Assembly (NCBI GenBank): GCA_003856375.1
Contig: CP034120.1
Coordinates: forward strand, 4,521,501-4,585,500
Direction: 5' to 3'
Origin: Glaciecola amylolytica
Lineage (GTDB): Bacteria > Bacteroidota > Bacteroidia > Flavobacteriales_D > Crocinitomicaceae
DNA: 64,000 nucleotides
Shown: positions 736-14,303 of the stretch, one piece after another
How positions within the stretch are numbered: the stretch's first letter is position 1
Layout of the letters: each line of letters begins with the position of its first letter
The notes under the pieces: model-generated
Databases searched by the model: none
Seen by the model: the letters and a program-made list of their open reading frames with translations, nothing else
Told to the model about the DNA's origin: nothing
Program-made: the position numbers and the translations under genes

Positions 736-1068
736 CTATTTCTTCGAATTTACCTTCTTCAACAACTCGTTGTAATCCTCCAGCAATTTGAGATACTTGT
801 TCTTCCAGTACTCTTTTGTTTGGTTGTTGTACGGATTTTCCGGATCTTCGAAAGAAGTCGGGTTGATAACGTTCAATTCCTTAATCTCTGCGGAAAAGTC
901 ATGATGAATGATCTTTCCGATCTTTAAGATCGTTTCGATATCAATCTGAGGATTATCAAACATGAGATACATCCATCTTCTGCTCTTGCCCAATTTCTTG
1001 GCAATAATAGTAATCGGAAATCCGCTTTGTCTGATTGCTTGTTCTACAATTTCACCACGATGCTGCAT
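736..1068 (-). CDS. Small helix-turn-helix protein, paralogue 1
   Basis: A 110-residue protein. Residues ~1-65 look like an XRE/lambda-repressor-type helix-turn-helix: helix 'EIVEQAIRQSGF', turn, then 'IAKKLGKSRRWMYLMF', where the recognition helix would be. The remaining ~45 residues are polar and end in a helix rich in Lys, Leu and Glu that could be a coiled coil or dimerisation element. It is probably a DNA-binding regulator of unknown target. It is a near-duplicate of 1353-1685 (same length, roughly three quarters identical by eye, strongest in the N-terminal half). The upstream minus-strand sequence has GATTTTTG immediately before the start, one mismatch from TAnnTTTG, which would give a very short leader. 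Function beyond DNA binding cannot be read from the sequence. Confidence 0.75.
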   Translation of the reverse strand: MQHRGEIVEQAIRQSGFPITIIAKKLGKSRRWMYLMFDNPQIDIETILKIGKIIHHDFSAEIKELNVINPTSFEDPENPYNNQTKEYWKNKYLKLLEDYNELLKKVNSKK

Positions 1069-1352: not shown

Positions 1353-1685
1353 CTATTTCTTCGAACTGACCTTCTTCAATAACTCATTATAATCCTCCAG
1401 CAATTTCAGATACTTATTTTTCCAGTATTCTTTTGTTTGCCCGTTGTACAGATCTTCAGGATCTGAAAATGAGTTTGAACGATTGTGATTCAATTCTTTG
1501 ATGTCCTCAGAAAAATCATGGTGGATGATTGTGCCGATAGCCAGAACCGTATCAATATCGATTTGAGGATTATCAAACATCAGATACATCCATCTCCTGC
1601 TTTTGCGCAATCTTTTTGCGACAATAGTAATCGAAAAACCACTTTGCCTGATCGCCTGTTCCACAATTTCGCCACGGTGCTGCAT
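1353..1685 (-). CDS. Small helix-turn-helix protein, paralogue 2
   Basis: A 110-residue paralogue of 736-1068. I use the internal ATG (protein start MQHRGE) rather than the upstream in-frame ATG at 1736, because homology with paralogue 1 begins exactly there and both genes are then 333 bases long. It has the same helix-turn-helix core ('IAKRLRKSRRWMYLMF') and the same Lys-rich C-terminal helix. Differences cluster in the linker around residues 65-85 and in two residues of the putative second helix (KKLG versus RLRK), which could change the DNA target. The pair with flanking DNA (about 601-1110 and 1240-1735) is a tandem duplication of roughly 0.6 kb. Confidence 0.75.
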   Translation of the reverse strand: MQHRGEIVEQAIRQSGFSITIVAKRLRKSRRWMYLMFDNPQIDIDTVLAIGTIIHHDFSEDIKELNHNRSNSFSDPEDLYNGQTKEYWKNKYLKLLEDYNELLKKVSSKK

Positions 1686-1994
1686 AGAAACAAATTTCTT
1701 CGCTTTACTGGGTAGTATTGTTACCATTAAATACACATAAAGGAGTATTATTTGCTATAATTGTTTGTTTTGTATTGGTTTTGTTGACTTTTTTTGTTCG
1801 ATCATATGCGGGAAATGGAATCAAACCAACGAACTAATTACTCTTTCGTACATTCAGCCATAATTACTTTGATGAATTTAAAAGTGCTGTTTTTACTGGA
1901 TATTTGAAGCTTATATGTTCTGTATGAAATCTGCTGATCGATTTTGCCCTGTATTGGGTTTTAATGTTTTTTTAGCGTTTAGGAGAATTTTTTT

Positions 1995-2016
1995 TCACAT
2001 GAATGCGCATATGTGA
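1995..2016. promoter_or_regulatory. Operator-like inverted repeat upstream of the peptide cluster promoter
   Basis: TCACAT and ATGTGA form 6-bp arms around a 10-base spacer. The element ends 10 bases before the -7-like TACATTTG, where a -33 element would be expected; no TTTG is present there. This position suits an activator or repressor of the RiPP operon. The neighbouring HTH paralogues are possible but unproven candidates. Confidence 0.35.
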
Positions 2017-2026
2017 GAATTGTTTT

Positions 2027-2034
2027 TACATTTG
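2027..2034 (+). promoter_or_regulatory. Bacteroidota -7 element (TACATTTG) for the RiPP operon
   Basis: TACATTTG matches TAnnTTTG exactly. Transcription would begin near 2041, giving a leader of about 325 bases before the precursor ATG at 2368. No clear -33 TTTG is visible at the usual distance. Confidence 0.45.
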
Positions 2035-2055
2035 TATTCAATACTACGACAGAAC

Positions 2056-2322
2056 AAACCGGAAAACAGGTGTAGACCAGGTTTTCAATCTGTAAACATT
2101 GTTTTCGCGGTTTTGTATAAAAAATGTTGATGCTTACCAGAAAGCATCAATCCACTCAATCCTTGCTGATAAAGAGCAAGGCAAAGATTCACTGAAATAA
2201 TTTCAGCGAAATACATAAAGAAAATGGAAGTGCCGGTAACACTTCCTTGCATGTTCAGCTGTTTACCGGCTTCTGACGTGCAAAAGCTTTGCAATTAGCA
2301 GTGTTGCCGAAAATGCTATTGC
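2056..2322 (+). promoter_or_regulatory. Candidate structured leader RNA or ncRNA with at least seven stems
   Basis: Complementary segments read by eye: 2056-2067 with 2101-2113 (AAACCGGAAAAC, one bulge); 2127-2135 with 2142-2150 (TTGATGCTT/AAGCATCAA); 2161-2167 with 2175-2181 (CCTTGCT/AGCAAGG); 2192-2197 with 2201-2206; 2226-2232 with 2240-2246 (GGAAGTG/CACTTCC); 2280-2284 with 2288-2292; 2291-2300 with 2314-2322. The loop of the fifth hairpin (CCGGTAA, 2233-2239) is complementary to TTACCGG at 2263-2269, so a pseudoknot or an alternative pairing is possible. The region lies between the putative promoter and the precursor ATG. No match to a riboswitch, RNase P, tmRNA or SRP RNA signature was recognised. 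Confidence 0.5.
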
Positions 2323-2367
2323 GAAGATGAGGAAACAGAGTAGGCGCAACAACTAATTTTTTTGCTT

Positions 2368-2577
2368 ATGGCAACTAAAAACATAGAGTCATTAAAATCT
2401 AAAAAGTTTGACTCAAAAAACATGGTAAGAGTATTCGGTGGTGATACTACATACGGACCTGCACGTCTAACACGTTATGACGGGCGAGGCGGACAGGATG
2501 GAGATACTGCTGCAACAACTTACAATCCGGCAGGTACACCTCCGGGAACTCAAGGAACTGATTATATCGGAAGCTAA
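2368..2577 (+). CDS. Grasp-with-spasm RiPP precursor peptide
   Basis: A 69-residue peptide. I choose ATG 2368 over the in-frame TTG 2362 because it is an ATG and gives a normal leader. Residues 1-25 form a Lys-rich leader ending MVRVFGG, a double-glycine site suited to the C39 protease domain encoded at 6547. The 44-residue core that follows is rich in Gly, Thr and Asp: nine Thr, one terminal Ser and five Asp (26, 38, 44, 46, 65), with no Lys or Glu. Hydroxyl donors and acidic acceptors are what ATP-grasp ligases join into omega-ester rings. A 'TTY' motif occurs at 27-29 and 50-52. A second Gly-Gly at 41-42 is a less likely cut site. The gene is followed by a hairpin and by the rest of the cluster on the same strand. 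Confidence 0.8.
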   Translation: MATKNIESLKSKKFDSKNMVRVFGGDTTYGPARLTRYDGRGGQDGDTAATTYNPAGTPPGTQGTDYIGS

Positions 2578-2593
2578 TTCAGTTTGTTTATTG

Positions 2594-2625
2594 AATCCTC
2601 TGCTTTGACTATAAGGCAGAGGATT
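2594..2625 (+). terminator. Hairpin after the precursor gene, likely attenuator or processing site
   Basis: AATCCTCTGC (2594-2603) pairs perfectly with GCAGAGGATT (2616-2625). Only three T residues follow, so it would be a weak terminator. Placed between the precursor and the maturation genes, it could give excess precursor transcript over enzyme transcript. Confidence 0.55.
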
Positions 2626-2648
2626 TCCCAACATTTAAAATCCCGGAA

Positions 2649-3548
2649 ATGAAAAATGCACTGTTCCTGTTTTGCTTCTTAATTGGTTTTGATGCTTCGG
2701 CTCAAATCAATCACATTGACTACAAAGCCGATTGTGACCCGGCTTATCGTTTTGCCCTCGATAGCTTGAATTACCCGAAATGTTTCAAACAATTATCCAA
2801 AGTAAAGAAGAAATACGGCAAGCTCTATTGTGAAGAATACATTTTAATGGCGCACTGCTATAAACAAATGGGGAAGGACACGAAAAGTGCGAAATTTCTT
2901 AGAAAAGCGTGGTCAAACTATTCATTTGACTTTGTGTGCCTGAATCAGATTACTCAAATCAATTTAGCCAAAATAAACGAAGGTTTTTCCAAAAAACAGC
3001 AAAAACTGGTTCAGCAGGGCTATGACAATTTTGCAAACCTAAAACGAAGCAATACGGATTCGTTGATGGCTGTTCTACAAACAATGACCGACAGGGATCA
3101 GGTGCCGCGTATGAAGTTTTATACGGATTCCATCATTGATACCCTTGCTGTGAATCGGGAGATTATTCAGATCGATTCACTCAATCTGGTCGAATTCCGC
3201 AACATCATTTACACACTGGGTTATCCCGGAGAGTGGATCTTGCCCGGAAATGTTTCGATGGTTTTTGTTTTGTTGGTTCATTCCTCATACAATCAGGCGT
3301 TCTTCGATGAAATGAAACCTGTTTTCCTGCAGGAAGTAATCGCAGGACGTATGCCGCCGAGTCATTATGCCTTGTGGCTCGATCGTCATTATTCCATGGT
3401 TTGGTTGCCGCAACCTTATGGCATGTTGGCTGTTCCGGGGAAAACGGATTTCTCAGAAGAGCAGATCCGGGAAATTATAGCGAATCGTTTACAAATCGGA
3501 TTGATCAAGAATTGTCCGATCCCAACTAAACTATTGATGTTCGAATGA
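2649..3548 (+). CDS. Secreted DUF6624-type protein within the RiPP operon
   Basis: A 299-residue protein with an N-terminal signal peptide (MKNALFLFCFLIGFDASA). The C-terminal half fits the DUF6624 pattern: a 'DRDQVPR' segment near residue 150, 'LGYPGEW' near 200, a helical 'VHSSYNQ' region, and 'PSHYALWLDRH' followed by 'PQPYGML'. Residues ~50-100 look like a helical tetratrico-type pair. DUF6624 has no established function. The last four bases overlap the start of the ATP-grasp gene (ATGA), so translational coupling to peptide maturation is likely. A role in immunity, product binding or envelope handling is inference only. Signal peptide and length argue against it being a modifying enzyme acting in the cytoplasm. 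Confidence 0.7.
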   Translation: MKNALFLFCFLIGFDASAQINHIDYKADCDPAYRFALDSLNYPKCFKQLSKVKKKYGKLYCEEYILMAHCYKQMGKDTKSAKFLRKAWSNYSFDFVCLNQITQINLAKINEGFSKKQQKLVQQGYDNFANLKRSNTDSLMAVLQTMTDRDQVPRMKFYTDSIIDTLAVNREIIQIDSLNLVEFRNIIYTLGYPGEWILPGNVSMVFVLLVHSSYNQAFFDEMKPVFLQEVIAGRMPPSHYALWLDRHYSMVWLPQPYGMLAVPGKTDFSEEQIREIIANRLQIGLIKNCPIPTKLLMFE

Positions 3549-4519
3549 TTCTGGTTTTTACTGAGCGAACCGATTTGAATTCAAGGACCGTTCTTTCGTA
3601 TTTGAACTACTATGATGAACCCTTTGAAGTGTTTTTGGAAGATGATTCCATTGAACTGGAATATACGATTGAACCAAATGAGTTTGATTATCGCGTATAT
3701 AAGAACAATCAATTTCTGTGTCATTCGGCGGAAATAAAATCCGTTTGGTATCGAAGAACGGATATTCAGGTTTGTCGATTCGGGACAGGAACGTTTTCTC
3801 AGGAAGGTCTTGAAAATTACTCCCGGGAACACATCAAAGCCAGAACCGAACAAATCCGGCGCTGTTTTCACAACAAGAAATGTCTGGGGAAATTCGGATT
3901 CGGGAATTACAACAAAATTGAATTCCTTGAAATCTGTACTTCACTGAAGATTGAGATTCCGAAAACGCTCATTACAAAGTCGAAACAAAGCTTATTTGAA
4001 TTTTGGAAGAGTTGTAAGAAAGAGATCATTACGAAATCGCTTGCTTTTCCCTTTGAATGCACCAATTACAATGAATCAGGAGAAATTGAAAGCTATCAAT
4101 TGGGCTATACTCTTCCGGTTGGATCTGCTGAATTAGATTCACTTCCTGAATTTTTTGATCTGAGCATTTTTCAGGAAAAACTCGATAAACAGTTCGAAAT
4201 CCGGACAATTTATCTGGATGGAAAAACCTATTCTCAGGCCATTTTTTCACAAAGCCGCGAGGAAGCAGTGTTGGATTATCGTCAGGGTTATGATTCGGGA
4301 ATGAGAATGTGCAATTATACTTTGCCGCCATTTGTGGAAGAACAGGTGCGAAAACTCATGACAAAACTGGATTTGAACTTCGGATCTCTGGACATTGTGC
4401 TTACAAAAGACAAACGATATGTATTTCTGGAAGTGAATCCCAATGGACAATACGGTGCAGTTTCGCTGTCAACAAACTCAAACATCGATTACGAAGTCGC
4501 AAAATTTTTAATGAACTGA
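3545..4519 (+). CDS. gwsG: Grasp-with-spasm ATP-grasp peptide maturase
   Basis: A 324-residue ATP-grasp ligase of the MvdC/MvdD (graspetide) type. The N-terminal domain contains the 'SVWYRR' signature (near residues 66-71) typical of these peptide ligases. The C-terminal ATP-grasp end is clear: 'LNFGSLDIVL' followed by 'FLEVNPNGQYG', giving the Asp, Glu and Asn expected to bind Mg-ATP. Family members phosphorylate Asp/Glu side chains of a precursor and join them to Thr/Ser or Lys. Here the partner would be the peptide at 2368, and its Lys-free core predicts esters. The start ATG overlaps the stop of the DUF6624 gene. The pairing with a SPASM protein downstream identifies the grasp-with-spasm subtype. 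Confidence 0.88.
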   Translation: MILVFTERTDLNSRTVLSYLNYYDEPFEVFLEDDSIELEYTIEPNEFDYRVYKNNQFLCHSAEIKSVWYRRTDIQVCRFGTGTFSQEGLENYSREHIKARTEQIRRCFHNKKCLGKFGFGNYNKIEFLEICTSLKIEIPKTLITKSKQSLFEFWKSCKKEIITKSLAFPFECTNYNESGEIESYQLGYTLPVGSAELDSLPEFFDLSIFQEKLDKQFEIRTIYLDGKTYSQAIFSQSREEAVLDYRQGYDSGMRMCNYTLPPFVEEQVRKLMTKLDLNFGSLDIVLTKDKRYVFLEVNPNGQYGAVSLSTNSNIDYEVAKFLMN

Positions 4520-4525
4520 CGAAGC

Positions 4526-4717
4526 ATGGAAGGGATCGAAACAGCGGATGCGATTTTATCACAAGTCTACCCGAAAGCACATTTTGAAATAAAAGATCAG
4601 GCGAAAGAATCAAGAGCCCGGATTGATATTAAAAAGCTTAAGATGGATCGGTTGGAACAGGTCTTTGTGCCCGCATCGCCGATTTCATTAATGATTAATC
4701 ATACTGAGAAATTATGA
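4526..4717 (+). CDS. Unassigned 63-residue protein between gwsG and gwsS
   Basis: A short gene 6 bases after the gwsG stop, whose stop overlaps the gwsS start (ATGA at 4714-4717). The tight packing on both sides supports a real gene. The product is mostly charged and helical in the middle (Lys/Arg/Asp-rich, 'KESRARIDIKKLKMDRLEQ') with a more hydrophobic tail ('FVPASPISLMI'). It has no signal peptide, membrane segment, Cys pair or double-glycine leader, so it is not an obvious second precursor. It could be a small adaptor or recognition element for the maturases. I do not recognise its family. Confidence 0.6.
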   Translation: MEGIETADAILSQVYPKAHFEIKDQAKESRARIDIKKLKMDRLEQVFVPASPISLMINHTEKL

Positions 4718-5799
4718 TACAAAGTAAACATACATCCGTGTTGAAATTATATCCGAATGTGATTCCCGTAAAAGGTTATAACCGTTCTCTGCTCGTTGAT
4801 TTACAAAAGGGGAAACCTTACTTTGTTCCAAACGACCTGGTTGATTATCTGGAACAAATTCCAGAAACCGAAGTGGATGAGTATGAAACCTTTGTTACTG
4901 AAAACGATCTGGGAATAGTGATTAATCAGGAACTTGGGGCATGTCTGGCTCCGCTTGAACTAACTTATCATCCCGATTCAAAAATCAACAATGCCATTTT
5001 GGAACTGGATGAAAATTCTTCCTGGAATATTGCATCTGTTTTTAGTCAATTGGATGAACTCGGGACGCAATTTCTGGAGGTAAGATTTCTTGATGACACA
5101 GCCTTGTTGAAGAACCTGCATACGATTCAGGAATGTGTCCGCGAAACTACGATCGAATCTGTTCAGATCCTGATTCCGTTTCATGAGAATCTGAAACATT
5201 TTCTGGATTCACAGCTGAGTGAGCGCTTTTTCCGTTTGAGTACCATTGTGGTTTACAATGCACCAAAAGGATTTGAATTGAAAACGAATTCCTGCAACCT
5301 GATATTTACGCGTCAGAAATCTGTTTCTCACGAAAATTGCGGGAATATCTCAATGGATTCTTTTACGGTGAATACTCAGACTTATGTGCGAAATCAGAAT
5401 TACAACAGTTGTTTGGCCCACAAAATCAGTGTCGATAAAGATGGATTGATCCGTAATTGTCCGTCATTGGAACCACCATATGGATATGTGGATTCAACGC
5501 GCTTGCGGGATCTTGTTGCCCGAAAGGAATTTCGGAGCAAATGGAAGCTCACCAAAGACAAGTTACTTGTCTGTTCGGTCTGTGAATTCAGATGGATTTG
5601 TAACGACTGCAGAGCTTTTACACTGGATGATCTCGAGAACGGGAAACCTTCAAAATGTAAGTACAATCCCTTTATCAGTTTGTGGGCGGATGACGACAAC
5701 TATTTATCGGAAAAGGAATGCGGGATCAGCTTTCATGGCGGTGAAATCCGGATTGATGAAGAAAAACTGAACCAAATAAACGAAAAGATATGGGGTTGA
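4714..5799 (+). CDS. gwsS: Grasp-with-spasm SPASM-domain peptide maturase (no radical SAM core)
   Basis: A 361-residue protein. The C-terminal third carries a seven-cysteine SPASM pattern: C233, then 'DGLIRNC' (C249, the Gly-x4-Cys element), C287-x2-C290-x5-C296-x2-C299 and C315. The last pair is spaced x2 rather than the usual x3. The N-terminal two thirds has no Cys-x3-Cys-x2-Cys, so the radical SAM cluster is missing while the auxiliary-cluster domain remains. That combination defines the SPASM partner of grasp-with-spasm systems. It may bind iron-sulphur clusters, recognise the leader or scaffold the ligase; its biochemical role is not established. It overlaps the upstream small gene by four bases and the OmpA-like gene by ten. 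Confidence 0.87.
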   Translation: MIQSKHTSVLKLYPNVIPVKGYNRSLLVDLQKGKPYFVPNDLVDYLEQIPETEVDEYETFVTENDLGIVINQELGACLAPLELTYHPDSKINNAILELDENSSWNIASVFSQLDELGTQFLEVRFLDDTALLKNLHTIQECVRETTIESVQILIPFHENLKHFLDSQLSERFFRLSTIVVYNAPKGFELKTNSCNLIFTRQKSVSHENCGNISMDSFTVNTQTYVRNQNYNSCLAHKISVDKDGLIRNCPSLEPPYGYVDSTRLRDLVARKEFRSKWKLTKDKLLVCSVCEFRWICNDCRAFTLDDLENGKPSKCKYNPFISLWADDDNYLSEKECGISFHGGEIRIDEEKLNQINEKIWG

Positions 5800-6536
5800 A
5801 TTCGTTTTTCGCACTGCTGATCGGATGTCTGTTTCCGCTTGGAGAAGTATTTTCTCAGGATTTGGTTGAGATCAGGTTGATTGACTCAATTTCGGTTTCG
5901 TTTGATTCCGGAAGTGCTGTGATCAAAAATCCTTCTAAAGTGATCAGCAGGATAAATCAAACGACACTAAGTCATGGGAAGATTCACCTGATTGCTTATA
6001 CCGATACGGTTGGGAGTTATTCATACAATAAAAGTCTGGCATCAAAACGATTGCTTGCCGTTTCGAAACTGATTGATTCAACGAGTATCAGAAACCTGAT
6101 GATGGATAGTACAAATCAGAACGAAAAACGAACCAAAACCAGTCTTGGTGATGATTCATTCCGAAGAGTTGATATCCTTATTTACAGTGTGGAGCCGAAG
6201 ATCAAGCTTGGGACTCCGGTGAATCTCAGAATCAACTTCAATCCTGAAACGACCAACTTCATTCCGGGTTCATTGGAAAATGTGAAAGCGCTTCAAATAC
6301 TCATGGAAATGGATACCACTCTTCAAATTAAACTGAATGGTTATGTGTGTTGTCGACCGGATTTGATTTTATCACTGCATCGCGCTGAAAAGGTGAAATC
6401 ATATCTGATTGATCATGGCATTGCTGCGAACCGGATTTCGTGTTACGGCTATTCAAATACCAGAGCCTTAGTACCTGAAACTTCTGAAGAGAATAAAAAA
6501 ATGAACAGACGTGTAGAAGTTGTTTTCATAAAGTAA
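5790..6536 (+). CDS. OmpA-family protein with two OmpA-like domains, in RiPP operon
   Basis: A 248-residue protein with a signal peptide (MGLNSFFALLIGCLFPLGEVFS). The C-terminal domain (~140-248) is a recognisable OmpA peptidoglycan-binding fold ending in 'NRRVEVVFIK', with 'LSLHRAEKVKSYLI' and 'RISCYGYSN' in the expected order. The first half (~30-135) looks like a second, degenerate copy ('FDSGSAVIKN', 'AYTDTVGS', 'NKSLASKRLLAVSKLI', 'RRVDILIYS'). The start ATG lies inside the end of gwsS, so it belongs to the operon. A role in anchoring the export complex to the cell wall or protecting the producer is inference. Confidence 0.75.
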   Translation: MGLNSFFALLIGCLFPLGEVFSQDLVEIRLIDSISVSFDSGSAVIKNPSKVISRINQTTLSHGKIHLIAYTDTVGSYSYNKSLASKRLLAVSKLIDSTSIRNLMMDSTNQNEKRTKTSLGDDSFRRVDILIYSVEPKIKLGTPVNLRINFNPETTNFIPGSLENVKALQILMEMDTTLQIKLNGYVCCRPDLILSLHRAEKVKSYLIDHGIAANRISCYGYSNTRALVPETSEENKKMNRRVEVVFIK

Positions 6537-6546
6537 GCTTCGTTTC

Positions 6547-8760
6547 ATGAAAAAGTTTCCCTTTTACAAACAACCTGATACAAAGGATTGCGGCCCGACC
6601 TGTCTGAAGATGATTGCAAAATCGTATGGAAGACTCGTTGAAATCAGTGATCTGAGAAGGTGGTCAGATACCAACAGATCCGGAAGCAGTTTGGATGGAA
6701 TTTGCAATGCCGCCGAAAAGATCGGTTTCCGGACTTTATGCGTGAAAATTTCCTTGAATGATTTGATGGCAGAAGCACCGCTTCCGTGTATTTGTTACTG
6801 GAACGAAAAACACTTCATCGTTGTTTACAAGATCGACAAGAAATGCGTTTACGTGGCGGATCCGGCTTATGGATTATTGAAGTATTCCAAACGTGAGTTT
6901 TTGGATAACTGGATTGGGAAAGAAGCCGAAGAAATGAGTTCGGACGGGATTTGCCTCTTGCTGGAAGAGACACCTCAATTGCTGGAAGAAGATGAAAATG
7001 AGGTGCCTAAAACCGGACTTTCGTTCTTGTTCAGATATTTGAAGCCGTATCGTAAATTGTTGTTTCAAATAGGAATGGGATTGCTCGCGGCCAGTATTTT
7101 GCAATTGATTTTTCCGTTCCTGACCCAAAGTGTTGTTGATATCGGGATTCAAAACAAAGACATTCACTTTCTGTATTTGGTGTTAATCGGTCAGCTCTTT
7201 GTTTTTCTGGGTAGGAGTGTGATTGAGATTATTCGAAGCTGGTTGTTGCTGTATCTGAGTTCCCGGATTAATATTGCTTTGGTATCCGACTTTCTGATCA
7301 AACTGATGGGGCTCCCGATTTCGTTTTTTGATGTAAAACTGACCGGTGATATCATGCTTCGGATCGGAGATCATGAACGAATAGAACAGCTGCTCACGAA
7401 TCAATCATTGAATGTGTTGTTCTCCGTATTCAATTTTATCGTTTTCGGCGCTGTGCTTGCTTTTTACAACGTTCCTGTTTTCCTGATCTTTTTAACGGGA
7501 ACGATTCTGTATTTCGGATGGGTCAGCTATTTCATGAAAAAACGCCGCGATCTGGATCACAAACGCTTTTCACACATGAGTACCGATCAGGGAAAGATGA
7601 TGGAATTGATCATGGGAATGCAGGAAATCAAATTGCACAATGCAGAACGGAAAAAGCGCTGGAGTTGGGAAATGGTTCAGATTCGTTTGTATAAACTGCG
7701 GATTCAGGGTTTGCGTCTGGAGCAAATTCAGAGCAATGGTGCTTCGATTATAAACGAGCTGAAAAATATTCTGATCAGTTTTTTTACAGCCAAATTGGTC
7801 ATTAACGGAGAATTGACTTTGGGAATGATGCTTTCCGTTTCATACATTATCGGACAGTTGAATGCCCCGGTTTCGCAGTTTTTGAGCTTTGTGTATTCCT
7901 TGCAGGATGCCCGGATTGCTTTGGAGCGTTTGGCTGAAATTCACAAGCGGGAGGATGAAGAACCCAAAGATTCGGGCCGGCTCACAGATCTGCCGGATAA
8001 ACATTCGATCCGTTTGGAAAAGGTCAGTTTCAGATATCCGGGAACACCTGATCCGGTTTTGAAAAACATTCATTTGATGATTCCCGCAAATAAAGTAACG
8101 GCAATAGTGGGAGCGAGCGGCAGTGGAAAAACAACATTCATGAAACTGCTGCTTCGCTTCTATGAACCGGAATCCGGGAAAGTGTTTTTGGGAGACACGA
8201 ATCTGAACTCATTTACACAGCATGTATGGCGCGAACACTGTGGTTCGGTGATGCAGGAAGGATTTATTTTCAACGATACGATTGCAAACAATATTGCGGT
8301 CAGTGATGATTTTGTGGACAGATCCAAATTGAAAAAGGCGGTTGAAGTTGCCAATATCAAAGAGTTTATTGAAGAATTGCCTTTGAGCTACAATACAAAG
8401 ATCGGCGCCGACGGAATGGGAATCAGTGGAGGTCAGAAACAACGCTTGCTGATTGCCCGCGCGGTCTACAAGAATCCGGATTTCCTGTTTTTTGATGAAG
8501 CCACCAGCGCATTGGATGCGAATAACGAACGCATTATTATGGAAAATCTGGAAGTGTTTTTCAAAGGCCGAACGGTGGTGGTTATTGCGCATCGGCTAAG
8601 CACGGTTAAACATGCCGATCAGATTGTGGTGATGGACAAAGGTGAAGTGATTGAGATTGGAACGCATGTCGGCTTGCTTGAACAAAAAGGAAGCTATTAC
8701 AACTTAGTCAAAAATCAATTGGAACTTGAAAAAGTGACCCGCGAAAATTCGAATCAGTGA
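6547..8760 (+). CDS. Peptidase-containing ABC transporter (C39 double-glycine type)
   Basis: A 737-residue exporter with three parts. Residues 1-~135 are a C39 cysteine protease: 'DCGPTC' with catalytic C15, 'NEKHF' with H89 and 'ADPAYG' with D105. Residues ~155-460 hold the membrane domain with about six hydrophobic segments. Residues ~490-737 are the nucleotide-binding domain: Walker A 'GASGSGKTT' (~522), signature 'SGGQKQR' (~628) and Walker B 'FLFFDEATS' (~650). All catalytic residues are present. It should cleave the precursor after its Gly-Gly and export the mature product. It lies 10 bases after the OmpA-like gene and two bases before the HlyD gene. Confidence 0.92.
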   Translation: MKKFPFYKQPDTKDCGPTCLKMIAKSYGRLVEISDLRRWSDTNRSGSSLDGICNAAEKIGFRTLCVKISLNDLMAEAPLPCICYWNEKHFIVVYKIDKKCVYVADPAYGLLKYSKREFLDNWIGKEAEEMSSDGICLLLEETPQLLEEDENEVPKTGLSFLFRYLKPYRKLLFQIGMGLLAASILQLIFPFLTQSVVDIGIQNKDIHFLYLVLIGQLFVFLGRSVIEIIRSWLLLYLSSRINIALVSDFLIKLMGLPISFFDVKLTGDIMLRIGDHERIEQLLTNQSLNVLFSVFNFIVFGAVLAFYNVPVFLIFLTGTILYFGWVSYFMKKRRDLDHKRFSHMSTDQGKMMELIMGMQEIKLHNAERKKRWSWEMVQIRLYKLRIQGLRLEQIQSNGASIINELKNILISFFTAKLVINGELTLGMMLSVSYIIGQLNAPVSQFLSFVYSLQDARIALERLAEIHKREDEEPKDSGRLTDLPDKHSIRLEKVSFRYPGTPDPVLKNIHLMIPANKVTAIVGASGSGKTTFMKLLLRFYEPESGKVFLGDTNLNSFTQHVWREHCGSVMQEGFIFNDTIANNIAVSDDFVDRSKLKKAVEVANIKEFIEELPLSYNTKIGADGMGISGGQKQRLLIARAVYKNPDFLFFDEATSALDANNERIIMENLEVFFKGRTVVVIAHRLSTVKHADQIVVMDKGEVIEIGTHVGLLEQKGSYYNLVKNQLELEKVTRENSNQ

Positions 8761-8761
8761 T

Positions 8762-10051
8762 ATGGAACGGAAAGACGAAATAGGAATTGAGTTGAAAAGC
8801 GAAGCGATGAATGCCTTGCTTTCAAGTCCGCCATCCTGGATTGTTAAATCCGGAAGCAGTTTGTTTTTCGTGGTTTTAATATTGGTTGTTTTCCTTTCCT
8901 GGTTCATTCAATATCCTGATGAAATCACCGGAGAGGTAGTTGTTACAAGTTCCAAAGCACCGATTGAACTTTCCAATCAAAGCTACATTCAATTGAAATC
9001 ACTGAATGTTGTCGAAAATCAAGAGGTGAAATCCGGAGATGTGATTGCCCAGTTTGATCTTCATGCGAGAACGGAAGACATCCTGAAAGCAAATGTTTAT
9101 CTGGAAAAACTGGCAGCGTTTGAAGGGAAATTCCGGAATCAGATTCCTGTATTCGATGCTTCTTTGCAATTGGGGACTTTTCAGGAAGAATGGACGACTC
9201 TTCTTGCGAAAGTAAATGAATGGAATAGCAAACACTCGGAAAATATCAGCCAGGAGGAATCTGCATCCATTCGTCGTGAAATTGCATTTCGTGAACAGTT
9301 GCAAACCATTTCGGCTCACAGAATCAAGCTGTCGGAAGGAGAATATGAATTGATCCGGGAGCAATTGGCGGGCAGTGAGCGTCTGGCGGATCAAAACGCT
9401 ATTTCCGGACAAACTCTCACGCAGGATAAACGTTTGCATACGCAAGCTTTGCAGTCGGTTCAGGCACAAAAAGAACAAGTTTTACAGAATCTGATTACGC
9501 TGAATACTTTGCGCAAAGAACTTTTGGTTCTGGAACATGATGAACGTTTGAAGGAAGCTCAGAAATCGTTGGAAATCCAAATCGGTATCAGCGCACTTAA
9601 AAACGGTTTTCAAACCCGGGAGCAGCATGCTGTTTGGATTGCTCCTTGTTCCGGTAGGATTTTGTTCAATAATGTGCTGCAGGTAAATCAGTTTTACAAA
9701 GCTCAGGAAGCTTCGATTGTAATTGTTCCGAATGGAAGCGGTTATACGGCTTTGGCTGTGATAAGCGGCAACGGAGCAGGAAAAGTAAAAGCCGGACAGA
9801 AAACGTTTGTGGAACTGACGGATTTCCCGAAAACAGAATTCGGAATGTTGGAAGGAAACGTACAATCCATTACGCAGGTGGATAAAGAAGGGAAATACGA
9901 GGTGAAAATTTCTTTGCCGGATCACTTAAAAACGACCTACAACAAACAGATTCCGTTCAAAGTTCAATTGAAAGGAAAGGTGAAAATCATTACAAAAAAC
10001 AAACGCTTACTGGAACGTTTTTTCGAAAAACTAAGAGGTTTACTCGGATGA
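8762..10051 (+). CDS. HlyD-family periplasmic adaptor
   Basis: A 429-residue membrane fusion protein: a short cytoplasmic N-terminus, one membrane segment (~residues 35-57, 'SLFFVVLILVVFLSWFI'), a first biotinyl-lipoyl half ('VVENQEVKSGDVIAQFD'), a long helical hairpin (~90-290) and the second lipoyl/beta-barrel part ('VWIAPCSGRILF', then 'VKAGQKTFVELTDFP'). It bridges the C39 ABC transporter and the TolC-like channel. The start is two bases after the transporter stop, and the end overlaps the channel gene by four bases. It fits the Bacteroidota HlyD type that accompanies peptidase-containing transporters. Confidence 0.9.
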   Translation: MERKDEIGIELKSEAMNALLSSPPSWIVKSGSSLFFVVLILVVFLSWFIQYPDEITGEVVVTSSKAPIELSNQSYIQLKSLNVVENQEVKSGDVIAQFDLHARTEDILKANVYLEKLAAFEGKFRNQIPVFDASLQLGTFQEEWTTLLAKVNEWNSKHSENISQEESASIRREIAFREQLQTISAHRIKLSEGEYELIREQLAGSERLADQNAISGQTLTQDKRLHTQALQSVQAQKEQVLQNLITLNTLRKELLVLEHDERLKEAQKSLEIQIGISALKNGFQTREQHAVWIAPCSGRILFNNVLQVNQFYKAQEASIVIVPNGSGYTALAVISGNGAGKVKAGQKTFVELTDFPKTEFGMLEGNVQSITQVDKEGKYEVKISLPDHLKTTYNKQIPFKVQLKGKVKIITKNKRLLERFFEKLRGLLG

Positions 10052-11322
10052 AACGGTTTGTTTGCATACTATCGCTTGGGTGTTGTTTCGCAGTTTTTTC
10101 TCAGGAAACGATTACACTTCAAACTTGTCTGGACAGAGCGGGAAATAACACCTTGCAAACAAATTCAGAATCTGCTTTCCTGCATACTTCACGTATCGAA
10201 AAAGAATTTCATTGGTGGAGTTTGCTTCCGTATCTGAGTGCAAATACGGGATTCAATACTTCTTTTGGACGGAGACTGGATCCGTTTACAAATACCTTTG
10301 CAACAAGTACCGTAAACTCTCAGTCTTTTGGGTTGAATTCCGGAATGCTCCTGTTCAATGGTTTTGACTATTTCCATAAGCGCAAGAAGTTGCTTGCCTC
10401 CGTGCGGAGAGATGAAATCAATTTTGATTCCAGGCAAAATGAGTTGAAAATTCAGGTCATTGAAAGGTATGTCACATTGTGCAAATTGTCAGCTCAAATG
10501 ACTCTGGCGACTTTGAGAATCGAGAAATACGAAGAACTTCAATCGCTTCAGCGTTTGTTGATCCTGGAAGGGAAAATCAATGCGGTTGATACTCTCAAAA
10601 GCCGGAATTCACTGCTTCAGGAACGGGTTTTGAAATCAGATTTGACCCATGAATGGAGATTGAATCTCGTTGAGCTGAATTTTCGAATAGGTTTTCCATT
10701 AGTGACCGAGCATCTTTTTGACGCTTCTTCCATCTCTGCAATTACGGATCGACCCCAATTTGCTGAGAAGTTCAGACTGGAAAGTCTTGAAACGGAAATC
10801 GAAATAGCGGAGAATGAATTGAAATCCGACCGGGCAAAAATGCTGCCGAGCATTGCTTTAAACGGGTTAGTTGGAACGGGATTCTCAACCAACAATAAGG
10901 ATTACACGCTTGCAGGAACTCCGACGAAAAGATACGGCGATCAGCTCAATCAAAACCTGTATGAAGCAATCGGGTTCTATCTAAGTATCCCGATCTTCAG
11001 TCGTGGGGAATGGCTCAAAACAAAGAAGTTGAACGATGTTAAACAAACGGAACTCGACCGGCAGCGGCAATTGACGGAATTGGAGCTTGAAAAACAAAGA
11101 ACCATCCGGATACAAAAGCTTCTCGATAACAAAGCCCGTCAGACCATGGTCAAACAAACAACAGAGAATCTTCAGATAACTTATCAGAAAAGTTTATTGC
11201 TCTACGAAGAAGGAAGAGTAGGCTATACGGAACTTGAAACTGCCTTGATGGAATGGCAGATGAAAGTGGTGGAATGGGAAGCGTTGAAATTGGATTATGA
11301 ATGGTTGAATCTGGTAGATTGA
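10048..11322 (+). CDS. TolC-family outer membrane channel protein
   Basis: A 424-residue protein with a signal peptide (MKRFVCILSLGCCFAVFS) and the alternating long-helix/beta pattern of outer membrane efflux proteins. Two related halves can be seen, each with an amphipathic strand region (for example 'NTGFNTSFGRRLDPFTNTF' in the first and 'GLVGTGFSTNNKD' in the second) and long charged helices. It completes the tripartite export route of the cluster and is its last gene; a strong bidirectional terminator follows. The ATGA overlap with the HlyD gene indicates co-translation. Confidence 0.88.
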   Translation: MKRFVCILSLGCCFAVFSQETITLQTCLDRAGNNTLQTNSESAFLHTSRIEKEFHWWSLLPYLSANTGFNTSFGRRLDPFTNTFATSTVNSQSFGLNSGMLLFNGFDYFHKRKKLLASVRRDEINFDSRQNELKIQVIERYVTLCKLSAQMTLATLRIEKYEELQSLQRLLILEGKINAVDTLKSRNSLLQERVLKSDLTHEWRLNLVELNFRIGFPLVTEHLFDASSISAITDRPQFAEKFRLESLETEIEIAENELKSDRAKMLPSIALNGLVGTGFSTNNKDYTLAGTPTKRYGDQLNQNLYEAIGFYLSIPIFSRGEWLKTKKLNDVKQTELDRQRQLTELELEKQRTIRIQKLLDNKARQTMVKQTTENLQITYQKSLLLYEEGRVGYTELETALMEWQMKVVEWEALKLDYEWLNLVD

Positions 11323-11327
11323 GGTTG

Positions 11328-11370
11328 AAAACAAGTAGGGGCGAAAGTTTTCCGCCCCTACTTGTTTTTT
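11328..11370. terminator. Bidirectional terminator closing the RiPP operon
   Basis: AAAACAAGTAGGGGCG (11328-11343) pairs perfectly with 11353-11368 around a 9-base loop, with T-runs outwards on both strands. It lies between the convergent TolC-like and AsmA-like genes. Its core (GGGGCGAAAGTTTTCCGCCCC) belongs to the same family as terminators at 36112 and 46678. Confidence 0.9.
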
Positions 11371-11390
11371 TATAATAAGATCAATCGAAT

Positions 11391-14303
11391 TTACTTCACG
11401 GCATCTGCTTTTTCACGAGCCTTGTTCATGATATTGTCGGCCTTGGTTTGCGCTTCCTGTTCCACTTTGGTTGCGCTGTTCTCAGCTTTCTTCTTCATTT
11501 CCTTACAAGCTACTTCGGCTGCTTTTTTCTTCAGCGGATTACCTCCTGCTGCGTCCATACCGTCGGCACATTGCTTGTCAGCTTCCGCTCGGATCTGATC
11601 ACCTGCTTTTTTCGCTTCAGCTTTCAGCTTGTCGGCCTCTTTCTGTGCGTTGGCAATGATTTCGTCCTTTTTCTTGTTAAGATCTTCTTTTACCTCTTTT
11701 ACTTTGTTGTCGATGACAGTTTTAACAGAATCCTTCGCCTTGTTGATCAGCTCTTTTCCTTGTTCCTTCAAGTTGTCTTTCAGGTTTCCGGTTGCTTTCA
11801 GAATCGCATCCTTAAAGTCGGTTTTGATCACAGGTTTCATGACTGTTCCTCCAACCAAAGCATTTACCGGAATAATGTCCGGAATACTTCCCAGGTTCAG
11901 TTTCGGAGCCAATCCGTTCACTTTTGCCAATCCTTGTTCCGCCGTTTTGAGAATTCCGGCCGGGATCATGGCTTTCGGGATCTGCATCGTCATTTTGTAA
12001 TCGATATCCTGCGTAAATGCAGTTGAACCCATGACTTCCGTGTCAATACCACTCAATTTGATCTTCAACGGCTTTTTCATCGTCACTTTTCCGTCTGCAA
12101 AGCTGAAGAAAGCTTTCACATCTTTGAATGTCTGATTTGCCAGTTTGTCCATGTTCAAAGATTCTCCCAGTTTTTTCAATGGTTCGAATCCGCTTACGGT
12201 CACCAGATTGGTAAACAGATCTCCGTCACCGGTCAGGGAATTGTAAACAGGTTCCAACGCTTTGGTCAAATCACCTTTCAGGTTTAAGGTCGAACTGAAT
12301 TTCCCTTTCGCATATTTCGCTACCGGAGCCAGTTTCTCAATCGTTAAGAAGTGAGAAGTAATTTCCTGAATATCGATTTCTTTCAGATTGTATCCCAAAT
12401 CAATAGCCGGTTTATTGTGGTCTTTCGAGCTGTAGCTTCCTCTCAAACCAACGGTTCCTCCCATAGTACTCATGGTTAATCCGTTCAGAGAAGCTACTTC
12501 TTCTTTCATATTCACATTTCCTTTGATGTTGTTTACATCAATTCCGTTGTAATGCAATTTCTGAATGCTCGTATTCAGGTCGAAATCTACATTTTCAGGA
12601 ATCAGAAGTGGTTCCGCATTCGGATCAACAGGTGCTGGTTCCGCAGACGGAGCAGCGCTCGCCGTAGAAGAACTTGCCGAAACTCCCATGATCTGATCCA
12701 AATCCAGGTTATTACTGTTGAAATTGAAAGCACCTTTCAATAATTGGTCTTCTTTGTTGTTTCCGAATAAATAGCCCAGATAGTTGTCAATTTTTCCGTT
12801 TACGGCAAAATCGGATTTACCCATCGTTGCGTTCATCTTTTCCAACGAAAGGTTTTGAGGACTGAAGCGGAAAGTCAGGTCTTTTACATTCACATCTTCG
12901 TTCAGATCTTTCGATTTGTATAGGAAATCAAACAATTCGATCACACCCAATGCGTTGAATTTCTCGTATTGTTCTTTCTCGATAGAACTCATGCGTCCGT
13001 TCAAAGACACATCTGCATTCAGTTTTCCTTTGTAGGATTCTCCTTCAGCCAATGGCATGACTTTTCCAAGAGTTGCCAGGTTTATCTTTGCCTTTAATTT
13101 GGAATCGATCAAAGGATCCGTTATCGGATTTCTCAGTTTCAGATTCGCATCAATCAGGTTTCCAACAAACTCTGAGTGGAATTTTGTGACATCGATAGTC
13201 ATTTTATCCAGATTGGACCCGCCTTCGAATTTGGAACCCGCATCAACCGTAATGTTATTGATAGAACCAGGAAGATCAGGATATTTGATGGAAGCTCTCT
13301 GAACATTCAATCCGAAATCCCATCCCGGAAGATTTTTGTCGTCCATACGGCCTTTTACTTCACCGTTCAGTTTCAAATCTCCTTTGGCAATCATGCTTTC
13401 GTAACCGCTTTGGTAGAAACTTGGAACCAATGACAGCAAATCCTTGAAGCTGATTTGTTTCGTATTCAGTTTCAGATCAATTTGGTCGTGGTCTTTCAGC
13501 ATTTGGTAAAAACCGTCCAAAGACATGTTGAAGTTGTTCAATGCAAAGCTGTTTTCTTTCAAGGTGAATTTTGAATCATCCTCTTTGAATTCCATTAGCA
13601 GGTTCACATCCGCGTTTGTTTTTACTTTCGACAGGTAGCTCAAACCTTCCATTTCGAAAGTCAATTCCTCCATCTGAGTACTTGTTGCGAAATCAATGAT
13701 ATCAGCAGTCAAATCTCCTTCTCCTGTATGATTCAGATTTTTGATATTGGTATACATGTCAGAAGCCTGATCGTCATAAACCAATTGAATATTCTTCAGG
13801 GAGTATTCTTTCAGCGACAATTTAAACTTGGAAGGTCCTTGATCTTCTACCGGTTTTTCGTCGGTCGGAATCACGATATCGTAGTTGGCTTTTCCTTCCG
13901 GATCCACACGTATATCGAACTTTGCGTCGGAAATGTGGACTTCGTCAATTTCGATTTCATCTCCACCAATTACATCCCATAAACCTACATGTGCCTCAAT
14001 AGTTTTGACACTTGCCAACTCTACGCCCTTAAATTCCGTTCTACCTGTTACCTTAGTGTCATATAATTGGATGGTGACATTTGGAAAGGTAGACAGGAAG
14101 GTTAAATCAAAGTCTTTGATGGTCACATCCGCTTTCAAAGATTTGCTTACTTCCTTCAATACCAATTCCTTGACTTCATCCTTGAAAATGACTGGAATTA
14201 AAATGATTGCAATGAGTAAGAATAAGAGGGTATACCCCGTCCACTTGAAAAGTCTGCGGATGAAACTTTTCTTCTTTTTCGGCAATTTTTCTTTTTTCGA
14301 CAT
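11391..14303 (-). CDS. AsmA-family envelope protein with Lys/Ala coiled-coil tail
   Basis: A 970-residue protein. A basic cytoplasmic N-terminus precedes one membrane segment (~20-40, 'WTGYTLLFLLIAIILIPVIF'). The AsmA-type N-terminal repeat follows ('LVLKEVSKSLKADVTIKDFDLTF') and then a long beta-rich region up to about residue 830 with the conserved AsmA C-terminal portion ('KMTMQIPKAMIP' and beyond). AsmA-like proteins are thought to form lipid-carrying grooves across the periplasm. The last ~130 residues are different: a Lys/Ala/Glu-rich helical tail with two Cys, likely a coiled coil. A low-complexity linker of Ser/Ala/Pro occurs near residues 545-565. It is divergent from the beta-barrel gene and single in its transcription unit. 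Confidence 0.85.
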   Translation of the reverse strand: MSKKEKLPKKKKSFIRRLFKWTGYTLLFLLIAIILIPVIFKDEVKELVLKEVSKSLKADVTIKDFDLTFLSTFPNVTIQLYDTKVTGRTEFKGVELASVKTIEAHVGLWDVIGGDEIEIDEVHISDAKFDIRVDPEGKANYDIVIPTDEKPVEDQGPSKFKLSLKEYSLKNIQLVYDDQASDMYTNIKNLNHTGEGDLTADIIDFATSTQMEELTFEMEGLSYLSKVKTNADVNLLMEFKEDDSKFTLKENSFALNNFNMSLDGFYQMLKDHDQIDLKLNTKQISFKDLLSLVPSFYQSGYESMIAKGDLKLNGEVKGRMDDKNLPGWDFGLNVQRASIKYPDLPGSINNITVDAGSKFEGGSNLDKMTIDVTKFHSEFVGNLIDANLKLRNPITDPLIDSKLKAKINLATLGKVMPLAEGESYKGKLNADVSLNGRMSSIEKEQYEKFNALGVIELFDFLYKSKDLNEDVNVKDLTFRFSPQNLSLEKMNATMGKSDFAVNGKIDNYLGYLFGNNKEDQLLKGAFNFNSNNLDLDQIMGVSASSSTASAAPSAEPAPVDPNAEPLLIPENVDFDLNTSIQKLHYNGIDVNNIKGNVNMKEEVASLNGLTMSTMGGTVGLRGSYSSKDHNKPAIDLGYNLKEIDIQEITSHFLTIEKLAPVAKYAKGKFSSTLNLKGDLTKALEPVYNSLTGDGDLFTNLVTVSGFEPLKKLGESLNMDKLANQTFKDVKAFFSFADGKVTMKKPLKIKLSGIDTEVMGSTAFTQDIDYKMTMQIPKAMIPAGILKTAEQGLAKVNGLAPKLNLGSIPDIIPVNALVGGTVMKPVIKTDFKDAILKATGNLKDNLKEQGKELINKAKDSVKTVIDNKVKEVKEDLNKKKDEIIANAQKEADKLKAEAKKAGDQIRAEADKQCADGMDAAGGNPLKKKAAEVACKEMKKKAENSATKVEQEAQTKADNIMNKAREKADAVK

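Follow-up and report, generated by a model that had tools for sequence, protein, structure and literature searches.

Graspetide loci in which an ATP-grasp ligase is accompanied by a SPASM-domain protein are represented by the family models TIGR04192 and TIGR04193 and are called grasp-with-spasm systems. For such loci, placed in graspetide branch 5, the portion of PMC8939145 (2022) used here describes a secreted companion named "cluster 23" and a small "LPL" protein encoded upstream of the SPASM gene. The portion of PMC13097080 (2026) used here gives DUF6624 as a frequent graspetide companion, named in four graspetide groups, and lists group 14 as the SPASM-associated group and groups 21 and 15 as having characterised members, while the corresponding portion of PMC9576775 (2022) counts characterised members in nine, then eleven, of 24 groups, its own including groups 8, 19, 7 and 2. 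We infer that branch 5 coincides with group 14, and that "cluster 23" corresponds to DUF6624. As far as the main texts of these three papers were covered, no product of the SPASM group was found in them, and a word search of the accessible part of a survey of Bacteroidales ribosomally synthesized and post-translationally modified peptides (PMC10352776) found no mention of graspetides. The locus analysed here lies in a 64,000-nucleotide (nt) stretch of the Glaciecola amylolytica genome (contig CP034120.1, positions 4,521,501 to 4,585,500; hereafter, the window), near the end of the 4.6-Mb single-contig genome. We consider it probable that the locus as a whole is a grasp-with-spasm graspetide operon controlled by a structured 5′ leader RNA. 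Its enzymes belong to a known kind, and its novelty lies in the regulation.

The composite leader RNA

The structured RNA occupies positions 2226-2345 and is separated from the start codon of the precursor by 22 nt. The fold of the segment 2036-2367 was far better than the folds of shuffled sequences (z -5.0), and a six-locus alignment of upstream DNA contained a conserved block amid differing flanks. A covariance model of the composite RNA, R1, was built from 11 sequences, and the pairing was scored in the 41 R1 matches of the loci analysed, 11 of which are the training sequences. These sequences are related, with several per genome, so that match counts are not independent events; their alignment is biased towards the model for P1-P3, and the kissing helix is outside the model structure. 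In hairpin P1, 95.2% of the cells were paired, with double changes at all seven pairs; P3 was paired in 73.2% and 91.4% of cells in its two parts, the pseudoknot in 98.0%, and the helix formed by the kissing loops of P1 and P2 in 98.8%, with compensatory changes. In relatives, the pseudoknot pairing GCC/GGC is replaced by ACC/GGT. The covariation of the whole structure was 0.372 versus 0.163 in shuffled data (0 of 500 as high), and structures slid along the alignment reached at most 0.116. P3 is rich in G-U pairs, in keeping with the + strand.

The variety of forms taken by the kissing pair is a better argument than the match counts. There were eight forms with seven distinct six-base cores: CCGGTAA/TTACCGG in the window, and elsewhere CGGTAA/TTACCG, CTGTAA/TTACAG, CCAGTAA/TTACTGG, CGGCAA/TTGCCG, CTGCAA/TTGCAG, CTACAA/TTGTAG and CTGGAA/TTCCAG. 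When the pair was read by alignment columns, locus L133 was paired (CCTGTAA/TTACAGG), L131 contained one G-U pair, and L129 contained one G-U pair and one mismatch.

The 3′ part of the leader carries the features of the Rfam element DUF805b (RF02914), that is a GCCGAAAA loop and a AGAGTAGGC sequence with loop-to-tail pairing. DUF805b was reportedly described by Weinberg and colleagues in 2017, and we know of no ligand for it; a literature search on DUF805b RNA, or on graspetides together with riboswitches, found nothing. The core pattern GCCGAAAA..AGAGTAGGC occurs four times in the genome of the window, twice at graspetide precursors. A survey of 149 genomes, the own one included, yielded 54 occurrences spread over 30 of them and none of the reversed pattern. 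Plain copies of the pattern match RF02914, 11 of them above the gathering score of 35.6 bits, in 9 of the 20 loci searched. DUF805b itself is present in 92 of 296 Bacteroidota genomes, where it precedes Gly-Gly peptides, Sec-type proteins and others. Plain DUF805b has eight matches in the genome of the window, six above cutoff (G000, L084-L091), and there, as in L053, L067, L237, L266 and other loci, it stands before secreted and other proteins; this survey of the genes downstream of far RNA matches and of plain DUF805b covered 42 loci, a good part of which had no pattern match and were left unclassified. The function of DUF805b looks tractable from its targets.

A sample of 80 named SPASM loci was searched with a loosened core pattern, which was set after the variants were known. 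The pattern was found in 17 loci (four of them Fluviicola-type), in every case before a Gly-Gly precursor and on the strand of the SPASM gene, and was without a match in the other 63. These 17 loci come from Kordia, Winogradskyella, Tenacibaculum, Chitinophaga, Sphingobacterium, Geofilum and other Bacteroidota, and three have ACC/GGT. Across 20 Markov-generated versions of this DNA the pattern matched once, and the reversed pattern had no match. The DUF805b-type element is thus a general Bacteroidota device, common to some graspetide loci.

On present evidence, the composite form is confined to one family. Of 299 genomes, the own one included, 23 had R1 matches, and each of these belongs to the family of the window; by a crude test a short Gly-Gly gene lies directly 3′ of 29 of the 41 matches and of 27 of the 28 with E<1e-6. 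On the named SPASM loci, R1 gave only E≥0.079 beyond the four Fluviicola-type ones. Searched against 395 Bacteroidota genomes, a further model, R2, scored no higher than 39.5 bits anywhere beyond the own genome, and a perfect-stem search of 12 of these matches revealed no kissing loops. The P1/P2 module was also seen without the DUF805b pseudoknot and with no gene found just 3′ of it (L031 3963-4095, L135 4240-4337, L139 3555-3657), where it is perhaps a stand-alone RNA, and in another genus (g17) the kissing-hairpin module precedes a conserved lipoprotein of ~250 amino acids (aa; L136 3767-3906, L137 742-881, L138 753-892).

The operon, its enzymes and the predicted product

The leader is followed by nine genes, all on the + strand at 2368-11322, and then by a strong terminator (Table 1). 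All genes named in the first-pass annotation are present on this strand, and its reading of the locus as a grasp-with-spasm cluster that is complete and has dedicated export genes is supported. Its account of the junctions as ATGA overlaps or gaps of a few bases was right for most of them: the genes starting at 3545, 4714 and 10048 overlap the preceding gene in ATGA, and the remaining junctions are gaps of 1-10 nt or one 10-nt overlap, with the exception of a 71-nt gap 3′ of the precursor. The single terminator it placed at the end is a 17-bp hairpin (-27.7 kcal/mol, z -6.3), which is outside the reach of a simple scan since its loop of 9 exceeds the loop limit of the scan. A sigma-70 scan of the region found sites to be rarer than in shuffles. 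Upstream of the operon, two small tandem genes that closely resemble each other were noticed by eye on the - strand (window 736-1068 and 1353-1736); both contain MQHRGEIVEQAIRQSGF and perhaps encode DNA-binding proteins, and their flanking DNA is repeated too.

Table 1. Features of the predicted graspetide operon and its leader (window positions)
Feature	Position	Strand	Details or basis
RNA hairpin P1	2226..2246	+	Loop 2233-2239 (CCGGTAA) forms the 5′ side of the kissing helix
RNA hairpin P2	2247..2283	+	Loop bases 2263-2269 (TTACCGG) pair with 2233-2239
Enlarged DUF805b-like pseudoknot	2287..2345	+	P3 2287-2300 with 2314-2326; GCC 2306-2308 with GGC 2343-2345
Precursor peptide, 69 aa	2368..2577	+	Gly-Gly at 24-25; 25-aa leader, 44-aa core
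Secreted diverged DUF6624-like protein, N-terminal TPR-like helices	2649..3548	+	Profile-profile comparison; model pLDDT 78
ATP-grasp graspetide synthetase (GwsG type)	3545..4519	+	TIGR04192 E 6e-59, 200 bits
63-aa protein in the LPL-family place, C-terminal PIS motif	4526..4717	+	BLAST, place and size in sister loci
SPASM protein (GwsS type)	4714..5799	+	TIGR04193 233 bits; 22-sequence alignment; AlphaFold2 model
Secreted tandem OmpA-like protein, probably peptidoglycan-binding	5790..6536	+	PF00691, two stretches
C39 peptidase-ABC exporter (leader cleavage, inner-membrane export)	6547..8760	+	PF03412 (Peptidase_C39) E 5e-33, PF00664, PF00005
HlyD-type adaptor	8762..10051	+	TIGR01843 E 1e-22, under cutoff
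TolC-type outer-membrane channel	10048..11322	+	PF02321 (OEP) E 2e-22
Intrinsic terminator, hairpin and T run	11327..11372	+	Hairpin 11327-11369

The best family of the ATP-grasp protein is TIGR04192 by far, the next one scoring 119.5 bits, and from its sequence the protein is a diverged TIGR04192 relative. The SPASM protein scored 233.4 bits against TIGR04193, above the cutoff of 175. In 149 genomes (own counted), the TIGR04193 profile had matches in 23, above cutoff in 14, and at least 564 relatives of the SPASM protein were confirmed in one scan; a scan of genome contigs with the single window protein as query found no relative. The CxxxCxxC motif of radical S-adenosylmethionine (SAM) enzymes is absent from all 22 aligned homologues, the window protein included, which upholds the earlier statement that this protein lacks a radical SAM core; because the motif is missing in all 22, no SAM cleavage is expected. 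The SPASM pattern itself is kept (C233-x10-G244-x4-C249, C287-x2-C290-x5-C296-x2-C299, C315), with each of its seven cysteines and C209 conserved in at least 19 of the 22 sequences and four of the pattern cysteines in all.

An AlphaFold2 model of the SPASM protein (predicted local distance difference test score, pLDDT, 89) resembles radical-SAM SPASM maturases. The structure matches were PqqE (Z 13.2, root-mean-square deviation 4.4, 201 residues), SuiB (Z 12.1), CteB (Z 11.9, 269 residues, model 15-319) and TigE (Z 10.8, 281 residues, model 6-329). For proteins that do not belong to the radical-SAM superfamily, Z was at most 7.0; the SPASM profile had no match under E 0.1 among PDB sequences. 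The predicted fold of barrel and SPASM domain is like that of all four enzymes, and the N-terminal part is also like those of CteB and TigE, whereas the window protein differs from them in having no CxxxCxxC motif. In some of these maturases, a leader-binding domain sits at the position of the N-terminal segment that aligns with CteB and TigE. The model suggests that the SPASM protein is probably a maturase that lost the SAM chemistry and kept recognition and the clusters, as a leader-binding partner. Paralogues that have lost further cysteines, and could be described as more decayed partners, are the second SPASM gene of L036 (11218-12315), L048 (8357-9484) and L049 (8811-9917).

As in grasp-with-spasm systems, a Gly-Gly precursor with Thr/Ser and Asp/Glu in its core adjoins the ATP-grasp and SPASM genes, and no NCBIfam or Pfam precursor model matches it. 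In seven aligned homologous precursors T35, D46, T51 and D65 are invariant, position 28 is T or S, D38 is present in six, and one Cys is present in four. The window core (residues 26-69) has a monoisotopic mass of 4492.04 and contains no Cys and no Lys, so that amide rings and thioethers are excluded and only esters are possible. With D46 and D65 as the invariant acceptors, two esters are predicted, that is a loss of 36.02 Da and an [M+H]+ of ~4457.03 for residues 26-69, and judging from the alignment a third ester could form if D38 is used. Radical-SAM thioether chemistry was considered for the window product and found unlikely, given a core without Cys and a SPASM protein without CxxxCxxC.

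Accessory genes and exporter histories

The conservation of the three extra genes was followed in seven sister loci with the same module type as the window, three of them close (in three other genomes; ATP-grasp identity to the window 77-79%) and four paralogous (41-44%). The DUF6624-like gene is kept in all seven, a small gene of 63-66 aa in the same place also in all seven (by BLAST matches in three, by place and size in four), and the OmpA-like gene in six. Hence, the absence of these genes from all related clusters, which the first-pass annotation had named as evidence against its proposal, was not observed. A second grasp-with-spasm cluster of the same genome, at ~915-924 kb (L031 5692-14084; G000:C1 ~915.7-924.1 kb), has the composite RNA and no OmpA-like gene. 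Among the named SPASM loci, a DUF6624-type protein is present in 43 of 80, the ATP-grasp gene is followed, by loose criteria, by a small gene with a PIS-like motif in 49 of 77, and the OmpA-like profile matches in 7 of 80, four of these being Fluviicola-type. In one more of the seven, L206 (4154-5347), from an uncultured Bacteroidetes genome not titled Fluviicola, the OmpA-like gene lies directly 3′ of the SPASM gene.

The DUF6624 name given earlier to the second gene stands by distant similarity only. Profile-profile comparison of the window protein family gave a DUF6624 probability of 96-98%, whereas the Pfam model (PF20329) had no match at E≤1 on the window protein itself, matched 2 of 11 of its homologues, and gave 21.8 bits, under the cutoff of 27, for a 72% identical orthologue. 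The model of this protein had no PDB match at E≤0.001. The 63-aa protein has no LPL motif, and its gene is in the position of the LPL family, directly upstream of the SPASM gene and overlapping it at 4714; its C-terminal PIS is common by eye to several small proteins of related loci with PL near their N terminus. Two of the three extra genes look like known companions, and the earlier view that the combination is undescribed is not supported, as the portions of PMC8939145 and PMC13097080 used here already report the cluster 23 and LPL companions and DUF6624, respectively. The word OmpA was not found by a word search of their main texts, as far as accessible.

The peptide module and the exporter, as their sequences indicate, have different histories. 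The mean identity among 14 loci was 68% for C39-ABC, 41% for HlyD, 33% for ATP-grasp and 31% for SPASM. The window ATP-grasp groups with L041, L043 and L044, and the window C39-ABC with L033 and L032; forcing the ATP-grasp grouping on the exporter tree was rejected (log-likelihood difference 123, approximately unbiased test p 6.2e-41), where the trees are quick ones and the tested four-locus group was picked by ATP-grasp identities with the exporter identities already known. Relatives have tandem modules before one exporter, and in L036, L037, L048 and L122 remnants of C39 5′ ends, 64-94% identical to an intact gene, lie between the modules. Some SPASM 3′ ends are also among these remnants. 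This pattern suggests that modules were exchanged or accreted by recombination. Three findings go beyond the first-pass annotation, namely the leader RNA, the SPASM protein's pseudo-enzyme fold and the differing histories of module and exporter.

Proposed mechanism, alternatives and comparison with known systems

The gene set, the covarying leader pairs and the homology of every part are established at the sequence level, and the leader RNA probably controls when the peptide is made. In the proposed mechanism, the transcript would start upstream of the P1/P2 kissing-hairpin module, which is joined to the enlarged DUF805b-like pseudoknot, and the forming or opening of the pseudoknot would set the level of precursor translation. 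The SPASM protein would hold the Gly-Gly leader in the role of a recognition partner, assisted by the 63-aa protein, while the ATP-grasp enzyme would make side-chain esters from core Thr/Ser to Asp (D46, D65). The C39 domain would cut after Gly25, and the ABC-HlyD-TolC machine would export the peptide. The DUF6624-like and OmpA-like proteins would have a periplasmic role, for which self-protection or a last processing step can be guessed, and the module from precursor to SPASM would have been exchanged against the exporter by recombination. It is also possible, as a tentative extension, that the composite RNA is a new regulatory class sensing a metabolite, the own peptide or a protein, and that DUF805b-type RNAs are a Bacteroidota-wide control of secreted antagonistic peptides and proteins, graspetides included.

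Several observations weigh against this explanation. In the leader, P2 pairing is weakly supported (48.4% of cells for the lower part, 72.0% for the upper), two A-U pairs of the kissing helix never vary and another of its pairs is present in three sequences only, and in the second match of L130 this helix is unpaired at two positions. The composite RNA is present in 8 of 13 SPASM loci inspected, of 14 SPASM matches in the genus, and downstream of the other 12 of the 41 R1 matches there are secreted proteins, a conserved lipoprotein or no recognised gene, some of these matches consisting of P1/P2 alone. A search of window positions 1500-12000 with RF02914 returned nothing at E≤1, and the sister-locus elements were also under the gathering score (12.9 bits for the orthologous L041 element); the window copy and its sisters have a longer stem and two preceding hairpins. 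No -33 promoter element was seen upstream of the operon in a by-eye reading. Three terminator-like sites lie on the - strand at 2127-2246, P1 included, at a frequency not above shuffles, and the leader hairpins may have a second role on that strand. Among the proteins, the ATP-grasp enzyme scored 199.9 bits (E 6e-59) against the TIGR04192 cutoff of 230, the C39-ABC gene of the sister locus L045 is broken into two frames, and the putative leader-binding role of the SPASM protein is read from fold and position.

The leader admits other readings. That it is a plain DUF805b element was rejected, the window copy not being recognised by RF02914. It could be a mere stabilising or insulating 5′ end that sets RNA half-life with no ligand or regulator, as stable stacked hairpins near the 5′ end can protect transcripts and no DUF805b ligand is known to us; we regard this as rather doubtful, for such a function requires neither a conserved loop-loop contact nor a pseudoknot kept almost unchanged at 22 nt from the start codon. 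The 5′ element could instead act as DNA, a protein-binding or recombination site, which would fit the almost invariant core GCCGAAAA..AGAGTAGGC at a near-fixed distance to the start codon and the exchange of modules next to it. The compensatory changes in P1, P3, kissing loops and pseudoknot, with no shuffle as high, the G-U pairs, the common strand with the SPASM gene in 17 of 17 loci, and the matches of plain copies to an Rfam cis-regulatory RNA make a DNA site quite improbable, and argue for an RNA.

The SPASM protein could, alternatively, introduce a second modification, such as a thioether, as a redox enzyme in its own right that uses its iron-sulphur clusters. The conservation of its cysteines and of C209, the Cys found in four of seven precursors, and the carbon or thioether bonds suggested for this branch in the part of PMC8939145 used here point this way, but the CxxxCxxC motif is missing in every homologue, with no SAM cleavage expected, the window core has no Cys, and of the three paralogues that lost several SPASM cysteines two are in loci with an intact exporter; a redox role is hence unlikely. 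A decaying cluster without a modified product is very improbable: this reading would agree with the ATP-grasp score under the cutoff, but all frames are open, the three close sister genomes keep ATP-grasp orthologues at 77-79% identity, and the precursor core positions are conserved. A graspetide operon under the control of its leader RNA remains our preferred explanation.

With an ester-only core, two invariant acceptors and a partner resembling a dead radical enzyme, the locus is a clean test case. Through its RNA leader, an orphan Rfam family becomes linked to peptide natural products, and there is a way into the question of how such clusters are switched on, often the obstacle to product discovery. 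The mosaic of modules and exporters suggests a route by which such loci diversify chemically.

In comparison with the grasp-with-spasm systems of TIGR04192/TIGR04193 (branch 5 in PMC8939145, group 14 in PMC13097080, each as far as accessible), the window has the same Gly-Gly precursor, ATP-grasp enzyme, small protein, SPASM protein, C39 exporter and secreted DUF6624-type companion. It differs in the ATP-grasp score under the cutoff, the 63-aa protein without LPL, the OmpA-like gene and the Cys-free core, and in its structured RNA leader, of which the accessible portions of both papers make no mention. In rosaritide and MirB/MirC, according to the covered part of PMC13097080, a graspetide synthetase also stands beside a conserved companion, which there is PpiC-type; for the window enzyme, a dependence on its partner is putative. 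The leader shares with RF02914 the GCCGAAAA loop, the downstream AGAGTAGGC, the 3-bp loop-to-tail pairing and the position ~20-22 nt before the start codon, and is distinguished from it by a longer P3 (13 bp and a bulge), a longer linker and the added P1/P2 kissing-hairpin module.

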